Below, piece after piece: positions 52,660-56,152 of a stretch of DNA of 64,000 nucleotides. Every line of letters begins with the position of its first letter. The first letter of the stretch is position 1. Origin of the DNA: Herbiconiux solani NBRC 106740 (lineage in GTDB: Bacteria > Actinomycetota > Actinomycetes > Actinomycetales > Microbacteriaceae); NCBI RefSeq assembly GCF_001571005.1, contig NZ_BCST01000011.1, positions 1 to 64,000 on the forward strand, written 5' to 3'. The notes beneath the pieces are model-generated. The model ran no database searches. It was not told where the DNA came from and was given only the letters and a program-made list of their open reading frames with translations. Position numbers and translations under genes: made by a program.

Positions 52660-53178
52660 ATGAACACTCGTCAGAAGAAGTTCGCCCTCGCCACGATGAC
52701 CGGCGTCTCGATCTCGGTGGCCCTCGCCGGCTGCTCCACCGGCACCACCACGGCCGACGCGGGAGCGGGCGCTGCCGCTCCCGGCACCGCGGCCTCGACC
52801 CCCACCGCGGGCGGCTCGACCGGCTCGGGCGGCTCGACCGGTTCTGCGCCGGCGGCCGGCGGAAGCGCCTCGGGCGCGAGCACCTACGCCGACGGCACCT
52901 ACGAGGCCACCGGCGGTTACACCTCGCCGAACGGCAAGGAGGAGATCGACGTCTCGATCACCCTCGCCGGCGACGTCATCACGGCCGTGACGGTCACCCC
53001 CGAGGCGACCAACCCCAACTCCGTCAACTACCAGACCCAGTTCGCCGACGGCATCTCCTCGGTCGTCGTCGGCAAGGACATCGACGAGATCGACGTCTCG
53101 CGCGTCGCCGGTTCGAGCCTCACCAGCGGCGGCTTCAACGCGGCCGTCGAGACCATCAAGGGCGACGCCGCCGCGTGA
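52660..53178 (+). CDS. FMN-binding-domain lipoprotein (likely flavinylated electron carrier)
   Basis: A 172-residue lipoprotein. The signal ends with lipobox ALAGC (Cys25); a Gly/Ser/Thr linker of about 45 residues follows, then one FMN-binding domain (about 75-170, DGTYEATGGYTSPNGKEEIDVSITLAGD). The segment VAGSSLTSGGFNAA aligns with the (S/T)GA(S/T) site where ApbE attaches FMN to Ser or Thr; here it reads AGSS. It is followed 14 bp later by apbE and then a flavoprotein membrane partner, so it is probably the terminal extracytoplasmic electron carrier. ATG 52660 follows a purine-rich leader. Confidence 0.87.
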   Translation: MNTRQKKFALATMTGVSISVALAGCSTGTTTADAGAGAAAPGTAASTPTAGGSTGSGGSTGSAPAAGGSASGASTYADGTYEATGGYTSPNGKEEIDVSITLAGDVITAVTVTPEATNPNSVNYQTQFADGISSVVVGKDIDEIDVSRVAGSSLTSGGFNAAVETIKGDAAA

Positions 53179-53192
53179 CGGCGGGTAGCGCC

Positions 53193-54194
53193 ATGACCGT
53201 GCAGGAGCGCGGGCCGGGCTCGGGGACCGGGCCAGCGGTGCCCCCGCCGTCAGCGCCCGGGTCGTCGGAGCCCGGGTCGGTGGCCTCCGGTTCGACCGCG
53301 GGCGGGCCGGCGGTGCTCGAGTTCGAGGCGATCGGCACCCACTGGCAGATCGAGACGCCCGAACCACTCGGGCTCGAGGTGCGCGGAGCCGTCTCGGCCC
53401 GCATCGCCGACTTCGACCGGGCCTACTCCCGCTTCCGCGACGACTCGGTGGTGGCAGCGGCCGCCCGCGGCGCGGGGCGCTACGAGTTCCCGCCCGACGC
53501 CGTGCCGCTCTTCGAGCTCTACGACCGGCTCTTCGCCGCGACCGGCGGTGCGGTCGACCCCCTCGTCGGGCGCGAGCTCGAACTGCTCGGCTACGACCGC
53601 GAGTACACCTTGGTTCCGGTGCCCGCCGCCGACCGGGCCGGTGAGGATGCGCTGCCCCGCGCATCCTGGACCGTCGACGTCGAGCGCGACGGCCCCGCGA
53701 TCACCACCCGGCGCCCGCTGGTGATCGACGTCGGGGCGGCCGGCAAAGGCTACCTCGTCGATCTCGTGGCCGCGGTGCTGCGCGAGCACGGGGTCAGCTC
53801 GTTCGTGGTCGACGCCAGCGGCGACCTCGTGCACGCGGGGCCCGTGGGAGGCGAGCCGATCCGCATCGGCCTCGAGCATCCGTCGCAGCCCGGTACCGCG
53901 ATCGGCGTGGCCCGGCTCCAGGATGCGTCGCTCTGCGCCTCGGCCGTCAACCGGCGGGCCTGGGGCGAGGGCCTCCACCACGTCCTCGACGCGCGCACGG
54001 GGCAGCCGGCCCGCAGCGTCGTCGCCACCTGGGTCGTCGCCCGGACCACGGCACTCGCCGACGGCCTCGCGACCGCCCTGTTCTTCACGAGCGCCCACGA
54101 GCTCGCGAAGAGCTTCCACTTCAGCTGTGTCCGCATGTACGCCGACGGGCGAGCCGAGATCTCGCGCGACTTCCCAGGAGAGCTCTTCACATGA
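53193..54194 (+). CDS. apbE: FAD:protein FMN transferase (ApbE family)
   Basis: A 333-residue flavin transferase that uses FAD to attach FMN covalently to Ser/Thr of target proteins. Features: EFEAIGTHWQIE near residue 40, RFRDDSVVA, GAVDPLVGRELELLGYD, the nucleotide/metal segment VIDVGAAGKGYLVDLVAAVL, VVDASGDLVHAG and HHVLDARTGQPA. It lacks an obvious signal peptide and is therefore probably cytoplasmic or membrane-loosely bound, despite its likely substrate being exported; some actinobacterial ApbE proteins look this way. GTG 53175 (overlapping the previous stop) and ATG 53193 are both possible. Its stop overlaps the next start by 4 bp. Confidence 0.92.
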   Translation: MTVQERGPGSGTGPAVPPPSAPGSSEPGSVASGSTAGGPAVLEFEAIGTHWQIETPEPLGLEVRGAVSARIADFDRAYSRFRDDSVVAAAARGAGRYEFPPDAVPLFELYDRLFAATGGAVDPLVGRELELLGYDREYTLVPVPAADRAGEDALPRASWTVDVERDGPAITTRRPLVIDVGAAGKGYLVDLVAAVLREHGVSSFVVDASGDLVHAGPVGGEPIRIGLEHPSQPGTAIGVARLQDASLCASAVNRRAWGEGLHHVLDARTGQPARSVVATWVVARTTALADGLATALFFTSAHELAKSFHFSCVRMYADGRAEISRDFPGELFT

Positions 54195-55855
54195 GATCAC
54201 GCATCGACACCCTCATCGGGCGCGTCACGATGTACAACCTGCTGATCATCGTGCTCGCGGTGATCGCCGTCGTCGCGGTCATCGCGAGCGTCGCCGGTCA
54301 GCTGTTCTACACCCCGGCCGCGCTGGCGCTGAGCCTCGTCGTCGCCGTGCTGGCGACGGTGGGGTCGAGCTGGCTCGCGGCATGGATCTTCCGCACCCGG
54401 GCGCACCTGCCGTCGGCGGTGATCTCGGGGCTGCTGATCTTCTTCGTCTTCCTGCCGAGCGCGACGCTGCCGGGGCTCGGGTTCATCGCGCTCGCCGGAG
54501 TCATCGCCTCGGCGTCGAAGTACGTGCTCGCGATCCGCGGCCGGCACGTGCTGAACCCGGTCGCCGTGGCGGCGGTCGTGCTCTCGGTTACGGCCCTCTA
54601 CCCGTCGGGCTGGTGGGTGGCGACGCCGGTGCTGCTGCCCTTCGTCGCCGTGGGCGCGCTGCTCGTGCTCTACCGCACCCGCAAGCTGGCGATGGGCCTG
54701 GTCTTCGTGGTGGTCGCCGCCGGTGTCGTGATCGTGCGCGTCACCGCGGGCGGGCTTGAGCTCGGGGAGTCGGTGCAGCTGGCGTTCGCCTCGTTCCCGA
54801 TCGTCTTCCTCGCCGGCTTCATGCTGAGCGAGCCGCTCACCCTCCCGCCCCGGCGGCTGCAGCAGCTGCTGGTCGCGGCGGTCGTCGCGGTGCTGTTCGC
54901 GATCCCGTTCCAGCTCGGGCCGATCTACTCCAGCCCCGAGATCGCGCTCGTCATCGGCAACATCGTGGCCTTCGCCTTCGGGCAGCGCCGCAGCATCCGG
55001 ATGCGCTACCTCGGCGTCCGCGACCTCACGCCGACGGCCGTCGCCTTCGACTTCGAGCCGGCCTCGCCCGTGCGCTTCCGGCCCGGGCAGTACCTCGAGC
55101 TCGGGCTGCCGCACGGCCGGAGCGACTCGCGGGGTTCCCGCCGCGCCTTCAGCATCGCCTCCGCACCCGGGGCCGACGTCCTGAGCCTCGGGGTGAAGCT
55201 CTCGCAGCCCTCGAGCTCGTTCAAGCGGGCGCTCGTGGCGCTCGAGCCGGGCGCGACCGTGCGCGCGACCTGGGTCGGCGGCGACTTCCTCCTGCCGGCC
55301 GATCCGGCCACCCCCGTCATCCTCGCGGCGGGCGGCATCGGCATCACCCCCTTCATCAGCCAGCTCCAGTCCGCGGCCCGCGTCCCGGCCGCGGCCGGTG
55401 CCCGCGGTGGTCACGGCGCCGGCAGCGCTGGCGGCCGCGCGCCCGTTGGCGGCGCCAGCAGCCGCGGGTCCGGTGGCAGCGCCGGCAGCCGCGACACCGG
55501 CGGCAGCGCCGACAGCGGGGGGACCGGCGGCAGCGCTGGCTCGGGGGCGATCCGGGATGCGGTTCTCGTGTATTCGGTCTCGTCGGCCGACGAGCTCGCG
55601 TACCTCCCCGAGCTCGTGGCGTCGGGCATCCGGGTGCTCGTGACCGCCCCGCAGCCGCCCGCCGACCTGCCGCCGAATTGGCGCTACCTCGGTGCCGGAC
55701 GCCTCAGCCCCGACGTGCTCGCGGGGGCCGTCCCCGACCTCTCCTCGCGCCGCGGCTACGTCTCCGGCCCGCCCGGCTACGTCGACCACGTCTCGACGGT
55801 CCTCCGTCGTGCGGGCGCCCACAGCATCCGCACCGACCAGTTCGCGGGCTACTAG
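54191..55855 (+). CDS. NqrB/RnfD-like membrane protein fused to a ferredoxin:NAD(P)H reductase domain
   Basis: A 554-residue fusion. Residues 1-265 hold about nine membrane helices with NqrB/RnfD-like character (SKYVLAIRGRHVLNPVAVAAVVLS). Residues 275-554 form an FNR module: FAD site RFRPGQYLELGLP and RRAFSIASAPG, NAD(P)-site AAGGIGITPFIS, and C-terminal RRGYVSGPPGYVDHVS. A Gly/Ser/Ala-rich insert of about 60 residues (397-456) splits the nucleotide-binding half, from repetitive GGCAGCGC-type DNA at about 55395-55550. It would take electrons from NAD(P)H across the membrane to the flavinylated lipoprotein. It overlaps apbE by 4 bp and ends the operon. Confidence 0.88.
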   Translation: MRSRIDTLIGRVTMYNLLIIVLAVIAVVAVIASVAGQLFYTPAALALSLVVAVLATVGSSWLAAWIFRTRAHLPSAVISGLLIFFVFLPSATLPGLGFIALAGVIASASKYVLAIRGRHVLNPVAVAAVVLSVTALYPSGWWVATPVLLPFVAVGALLVLYRTRKLAMGLVFVVVAAGVVIVRVTAGGLELGESVQLAFASFPIVFLAGFMLSEPLTLPPRRLQQLLVAAVVAVLFAIPFQLGPIYSSPEIALVIGNIVAFAFGQRRSIRMRYLGVRDLTPTAVAFDFEPASPVRFRPGQYLELGLPHGRSDSRGSRRAFSIASAPGADVLSLGVKLSQPSSSFKRALVALEPGATVRATWVGGDFLLPADPATPVILAAGGIGITPFISQLQSAARVPAAAGARGGHGAGSAGGRAPVGGASSRGSGGSAGSRDTGGSADSGGTGGSAGSGAIRDAVLVYSVSSADELAYLPELVASGIRVLVTAPQPPADLPPNWRYLGAGRLSPDVLAGAVPDLSSRRGYVSGPPGYVDHVSTVLRRAGAHSIRTDQFAGY

Positions 55856-55874
55856 CCCCACCCCGTGAGGCGAA

Positions 55875-56152
55875 CCGTCACAAACCGCCCTAAACAGGGG
55901 CGGGAAGGGCGGTTTGTGACGGCTCGCGGACGCGGGAGGGGCTCGCATCCCAGCCACCCCACCTCACCCGTGGGGCGAACCGTCACTAAATGCCCGAAAC
56001 GTGGGCGGGAAGGGCGGTTTGTGACGGCTTGCGAATGTGGGGAATCCGCATCCCACCCACCCCATCGCTGGGGCGAGCCGTCAGAAATCGCCCTAAACGG
56101 GGGCGGGAGGGGCGGTTTGTGACGGGTCGCGGGTTGGGCGGTTTGTGACGGG
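55875..56152. repeat. Array of long hairpin repeats (3.5 copies, about 100-bp period)
   Basis: Copy 1 has perfect 17-bp arms (55875-55891 and 55906-55922) around a 14-base loop. Copy 2 (55980-56027) and copy 3 (56078-56125) keep the right arm GGCGGTTTGTGACGG but have altered left arms. A fourth right arm alone lies at 56136-56152. Spacer segments with GCATCCCA..CCACCCCA are also repeated. The 353 bp between the flavoprotein and the convergent photolyase gene hold no gene; they look like a REP/BIME-type element and would also stop transcription. Confidence 0.9.

Follow-up and report, generated by a model that had tools for sequence, protein, structure and literature searches.

The three genes at positions 52660-55855 of the window (the whole 64,000-nucleotide stretch of DNA analysed) probably constitute a minimal Nqr/Rnf-like electron-export system, which would transfer electrons from intracellular NAD(P)H to the FMN of a lipoprotein outside the cell (probability around 0.78). 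We infer that the cytosolic FNR domain of a fused membrane protein oxidises NAD(P)H via FAD and passes the electrons to a non-covalent flavin in the RnfD/NqrB-like membrane domain of the same chain and then across the membrane. There they would be accepted by a covalently attached FMN at Ser153 of the lipid-anchored lipoprotein, and the lipoprotein would hand them to an acceptor outside the cell. The ApbE encoded by the gene lying between the other two would attach the FMN to the lipoprotein, and it may do so in the cytosol, on the precursor, before export through Sec. Such a module would represent a two-protein route pushing electrons out of soil actinobacteria without haem or Fe-S. The parts, their sites, their co-inheritance and the absence of ligands for Fe-S or haem were established by sequence and fold. 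The genes are the following:

52660..53178, + strand: FMN-binding lipoprotein gene (open reading frame, 172 aa)
53193..54194, + strand: ApbE gene (ATG start; PF02424, E 8.7e-44)
54191..55855, + strand: fused membrane/reductase gene (open reading frame, 554 aa)

The start of the fused gene and the stop of the ApbE gene share a 4-bp ATGA overlap. An alternative in-frame GTG for ApbE was located at 53175, and from this codon the gene would overlap the lipoprotein stop. The original prediction of three overlapping or closely spaced reading frames was borne out by these positions, and the identities that it had assigned (FMN-binding lipoprotein, ApbE and NqrB/RnfD-FNR fusion) were upheld by Pfam, by the relatives and by the folds. 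The order lipoprotein-ApbE-fused protein was kept in about 50 genomes of Actinomycetota and Saccharibacteria with membrane protein identities of 32-63%, thus reflecting a conservation far beyond chance. At two loci (L040 and L071) ApbE was not found between the other two genes, and the lipoprotein gene still adjoined the fused gene. Each of the 15 same-genus genomes searched encoded the fused protein, and 27 of 60 genomes overall, the genome under study included, gave a match; scanning genome contigs extended its range to Microbacteriaceae, Micrococcaceae, Nocardioidaceae, Promicromonospora and Candidatus Saccharibacteria. The flanking genes (carboxylesterase, glycine-transporter family protein, photolyase, MarR and amidohydrolase) were common to only 8-13 loci, which indicated that the three genes form the unit. 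Its earlier description as self-contained also stood, since the three genes were the only conserved members of the cluster outside the genus, and the genome contained a single ApbE, a single FMN_bind protein and no match to PF03116 (NQR/RNF).

One relative (L036) seemed to have ApbE fused with the membrane protein; this fusion was discarded, since its mid-frame sequence was out of frame and a frameshift or assembly error is the more likely cause. Recent transfer into Saccharibacteria was also rejected: in the unrooted tree these organisms made up one side of a supported branch and were not nested. Scans for promoters and terminators and an Rfam search yielded nothing.

The lipoprotein displayed an NqrC/RnfG-like FMN_bind domain on a lipid-anchored linker rich in Ala, Gly, Ser and Thr, with two features of interest:

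52723..52734, + strand: lipobox LAGC, residues 22-25 (from the sequence; lipobox in 46/53 homologues)
53107..53118, + strand: candidate flavinylation site A150-G151-S152-S153 (S153 codon at 53116-53118; G151, S153 and T155 invariant in 40 sequences)

The seven homologues without a lipobox were all from Saccharibacteria and presented an N-terminal hydrophobic segment in its place. Searched alone against Pfam, NCBIfam and PDB sequences, the lipoprotein gave nothing credible, its score against PF04205 (FMN_bind) being 17.6 bits, below the Pfam cut-off of 22; PF04205 was matched by 24 of 40 family sequences. The structural model was of high confidence (pLDDT >90 across most of residues 77-172), and its best fold match was domain 2 of SaFMN3 (8p2a; Z 10.7, rmsd 2.1, 87 aligned residues), with Z values of 8.8 for NqrC and 8.4 for RnfG. 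As IscU-like and lipoyl-ligase folds came next at Z 7-9, it is the combination of fold, motif and neighbouring ApbE that supports the FMN_bind assignment. The site consensus over 40 rows was mostly [S/D/T]-x-V-[A/S]-G-S-S-L-T, deviating from the canonical flavinylation motif D-x-x-[S/T]-G-A-[S/T] (PMC12052999) at -3 (Ala in 32/40), at -1 (Ser in 39/40) and often at -6. The second Ser of GSS had been chosen beforehand as the likely FMN site, and the invariance of S153 and G151 agrees with that choice; S153 is thus the likely point of covalent attachment, well supported by conservation.

The C-terminal half of the fused protein was assigned to the ferredoxin reductases, with the following features:

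54986..55852, + strand: FAD/NAD(P)H domain of ferredoxin-reductase type, residues 266-554 (FNR and NqrF structures matched by phmmer/hmmsearch; fold)
55139..55153, + strand: R317-R-A-F-S321, which we take, from knowledge of the FNR family, to be the FAD-binding motif (R317 and R318 invariant in 40 sequences)
55331..55351, + strand: NAD(P)H-binding motif GGIGITP, residues 381-387 (G382, G384, T386 and P387 invariant)
55385..55540, + strand: strain-specific Gly/Ser/Ala insert of ~52 residues within an NAD(P)H-subdomain loop (27-bp in-frame minisatellite)

FNR/NqrF folds were matched by this half at Z 22-25.5 (NqrF, Z 23), and profile comparison with NqrF structures gave E values of about 1e-10 to 1e-7. 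The C-terminal NqrF-like NAD-binding domain (PF00175) was recognised in 35/40 family members. The loop that follows the NAD(P) motif comprised 62 residues in the protein under study vs. 4-13 in 39 relatives, the insert being encoded by tandem in-frame copies of a 27-bp unit (55420-55540). It was predicted to be disordered (pLDDT 35-44), and outside residues 400-452 the fused model was confident. The insert probably changes little functionally, and it may be the reason why the NAD domain of this protein escapes Pfam.

The N-terminal half corresponds to the membrane domain:

54191..54985, + strand: RnfD/NqrB-like membrane domain, residues 1-265 (AF2 model, mean pLDDT 87.9; RnfD fold)

The fold matched RnfD chains of Azotobacter, Acetobacterium and Clostridium tetanomorphum (Z 23.6 for 8rbq_D, 23.4 for 8ahx_D, 23.2 for 9eri_D and 21.8 for 7zc6_D; 238-257 aligned residues, rmsd 3.1-4.5). 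PF03116 was matched by 9/40 family members (best 1.6e-9), and the fused sequence of this strain, searched alone against Pfam, gave no match above the cut-off, PF03116 included. Alignment of the membrane-half profile with five RnfD/NqrB proteins by hhalign was weak (probability 62% global, 6% local), so the RnfD/NqrB assignment leans on the fold and on the Pfam matches in relatives. The invariant residues of the fused protein included N122-P123 and E214-P215 (40 sequences).

No Cys occurred in the fused chain and a single invariant His (H119) was found in its membrane half, which makes carriage of Fe-S or bis-His haem unlikely; an Fe-S or haem route was therefore rejected. It is very improbable, for the same lack of bis-His ligands, that the fused protein works like a flavin/ferric reductase or an NADPH oxidase and reduces the outside acceptor directly via haem, the lipoprotein being incidental. 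Its FNR half does resemble the dehydrogenase domains of NOX, flavohaemoprotein and ferric reductase, and PF08030 was matched by 27/40 family members, but the bis-His haem ligation that marks MsrQ-like, ferric reductase and NOX cytochromes was lacking, the membrane fold was that of RnfD, and the lipoprotein gene stayed beside the fused gene at the two loci where ApbE had been relocated. A covalent FMN in the membrane half was considered for the WWVATP stretch following NP(A/V) and was rejected as well: T145, matched to the flavin-bearing Thr of NqrB/RnfD by motif order in a stretch that hhalign did not align, was variable among the sequences (T24/N8/S5/A3) and was not preceded by [S/T]G, leaving no ApbE site.

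Electron export to the lipoprotein, the reading that we prefer, was also weighed against an opposite flow, with electrons taken inward, and against a coupling of the redox reaction to Na+/H+ as in NQR/RNF; both seem improbable to us. The remaining NQR/RNF subunits were missing from the cluster and PF03116 had no match elsewhere in the genome, and the direction from NAD(P)H to the outside is the thermodynamically natural one with a flavin acceptor. A reversed direction is nevertheless possible in principle according to Meheust et al. (PMC8238504).

ApbE matched solved FAD:protein FMN transferases (4e-17) and contained the motifs HHVLDxxTG and ADGLATA. Its N-terminus (MTVQERGPGSG...) was without signal peptide, lipobox, transmembrane segment or hydrophobic helix, and the signal peptide or lipobox of an extracytosolic ApbE was equally missing from its 50 cluster homologues. 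As a rough proxy for signal-peptide prediction we used the hydrophobicity score maxH15, that of the most hydrophobic 15-residue stretch within the first 60 residues. This score was 0.79 for the ApbE under study and ranged from -0.17 to 1.23 in 50 cluster ApbEs vs. 1.65-3.55 in 51 of 52 substrates; the substrate below this range (L073) probably has a wrong start. Control ApbEs from three gammaproteobacterial genomes with NQR/RNF presented a lipobox and maxH15 values of 2.2-2.6. Among the class-wide Actinomycetes ApbEs parsed by profile none showed a convincing export signal by maxH15, and the Actinomycetes FMN_bind proteins encoded beside leaderless ApbEs did possess an N-terminal hydrophobic segment. 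The leaderless ApbE, the membrane half without an ApbE motif and the 52-aa reductase insert were points absent from the original prediction.

In Listeria, the extracytosolic ApbE depends on FAD export by EetB, a known subunit of an FAD exporter (PMC9973259). A search for EetB (PF07456) found it neither in the genome under study nor in 148 Actinomycetes genomes, 92 of which contained ApbE. A leaderless ApbE is at odds with the standard picture of extracytosolic flavinylation and, taken together with the finding of no EetB, suggests a cytosolic attachment of FMN, ahead of export through Sec. The sequences thus suggest that this ApbE would flavinylate the lipoprotein precursor inside the cell, a conclusion weaker than that on the electron route. 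Extended to Actinomycetes and Saccharibacteria as a whole, the idea that FMN-binding lipoproteins or membrane-anchored proteins receive their flavin from a cytosolic ApbE, ahead of passage through the Sec channel, is tentative, and we give it somewhat less than even odds. Export of the lipoprotein by Tat following cytosolic loading was discarded, as none of the 53 homologues showed the Tat consensus and just five contained RR.

Flavinylation might instead follow the conventional scheme, with ApbE exported without a recognisable signal (by a non-classical pathway or together with its substrate) and modifying the lipoprotein outside, where another FAD exporter would supply FAD, exporters besides EetB being known or conceivable; the electron route would be unchanged. 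The well-studied systems of this type all flavinylate outside, and knock-out of a periplasmic ApbE was not rescued by ApbE expressed in the cytosol (PMC12052999); in addition, Sec substrates cross the membrane unfolded and usually acquire their cofactors outside (PMC9973259). Nevertheless, we consider an exported ApbE rather unlikely here, since a hydrophobic N-terminus was seen in no cluster ApbE, nor in other Actinomycetes ApbEs beside anchored FMN_bind proteins, EetB occurred in 0/148 Actinomycetes and an ApbE located in the cytosol is already known from Klebsiella (PMC12052999). Should cytosolic attachment be true, Actinomycetes and Saccharibacteria could do without an FAD exporter, the covalent cofactor leaving the cell within the unfolded chain. 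Extracytosolic flavoproteins would then arise in a way that differs from the scheme of periplasmic ApbE plus FAD exporter. A leaderless ApbE with an exported substrate also turns the attachment of FMN before or after membrane passage, in Gram-positives without EetB, into a testable question. Within the literature available to our search we found no paper on leaderless ApbE in Actinobacteria, and the main text of PMC8238504 and PMC10979944 does not mention it. Secreted proteins are marked in Figure 4E and in the supplementary material of Meheust et al. (PMC8238504), where leaderless ApbEs may already be visible.

Compared with the NQR and RNF complexes, the cluster shares the RnfD membrane fold, the NqrC/RnfG FMN-binding fold and the NqrF-like FAD/NAD(P)H fold. 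In contrast with NQR/RNF proper, no other membrane and Fe-S subunits were encoded alongside: NqrA/D/E, RnfA/B/C/E, the ferredoxin domain, Fe-S and the covalent-FMN motif of the membrane half were all missing. Among solved structures, the lipoprotein domain came nearest in fold to SaFMN3 from Streptomyces azureus, a multi-flavinylated protein on which ApbE attaches flavin upon co-expression (8p2a, PMC10339131); SaFMN3 consists of three FMN domains with a transmembrane anchor, whereas the lipoprotein has one domain and a lipobox. The ApbE resembles the cytosolic enzyme of Klebsiella pneumoniae in being without a signal peptide, but the substrate of the latter is a soluble cytosolic fumarate reductase and not an exported lipoprotein (PMC12052999).

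The nearest counterpart was the class of NQR/RNF-like systems defined by Meheust et al. in 2021, which comprises 127 clusters, mainly from Actinobacteria and CPR, is defined by an NqrB/RnfD-NqrF fusion within a flavinylation (ApbE/FMN-binding) gene cluster, and is proposed to transfer electrons from NAD(P)H outward, the VIT1 iron transporter being encoded in six of the clusters (PMC8238504). A system of this kind was modelled by Huang et al. in 2024, who state that the flavinylation Thr of NqrB/RnfD is not conserved in the class (PMC10979944). Consequently the minimal actinobacterial version of the original prediction is not new. In the part of the literature available to us, an acceptor was named for no member of the class. 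As described there, the class and the cluster studied here have in common the extracytosolic FMN-binding protein with its lipidation site, the ApbE, the NqrB/RnfD-NqrF-type fusion, the lack of further subunits and the unconserved flavinylation Thr (T, N, S or A at T145). The locus is a further member of this published class, in which every tested feature fits and the composition is identical, the member described here adding the 52-aa repeat insert in the reductase. Thus, what this work adds to the published account is a leaderless ApbE with an exported substrate and a reductase insert unique to this strain.

The gene for the fused protein, which joins an RnfD/NqrB-like membrane domain to a C-terminal ferredoxin-reductase-like FAD/NAD(P)H domain, carries one repeat tract within it and is followed directly by another:

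55385-55540, 27-bp minisatellite, in frame, within the reductase domain of the fused gene (+ strand)
55862-56151, units of about 105 bp with REP-like palindromes (CCGTCACAAACCGCCC ... GGGCGGTTTGTGACGG), arrayed directly 3' of the fused gene

The minisatellite added about 52 Gly/Ser/Ala-rich residues to the reductase domain, an insert that 39 relatives lack. The arm of the REP-like palindrome occurred genome-wide in 48 copies at ≤1 mismatch vs. 0 for the reversed control, and inverted pairs were a frequent arrangement of these copies.

Lack of a recognizable export signal on ApbE (the FAD:protein FMN transferase) seems to be a general feature of Actinomycetes (loci L128-L157 and L165-L194). EetB, the FAD exporter subunit, was not found in 148 sampled Actinomycetes genomes. 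At one locus in another genome (L036 in G024), the fused protein had its first TM helix out of frame, running on from the ApbE reading; an assembly frameshift is the probable cause. An actinobacterial MAG presented two FMN_bind matches in tandem upstream of ApbE (L067:3205-4073), possibly a duplicated substrate.

The fused protein was also present in Saccharibacteria (L054, L056, L058, L060, L062, L066, L071, and L083), with 32-45% identity over the best segments; in the unrooted tree these members were set apart from the others by a supported branch and, in loci where the FMN protein was found, it displayed a TM anchor instead of a lipid anchor.
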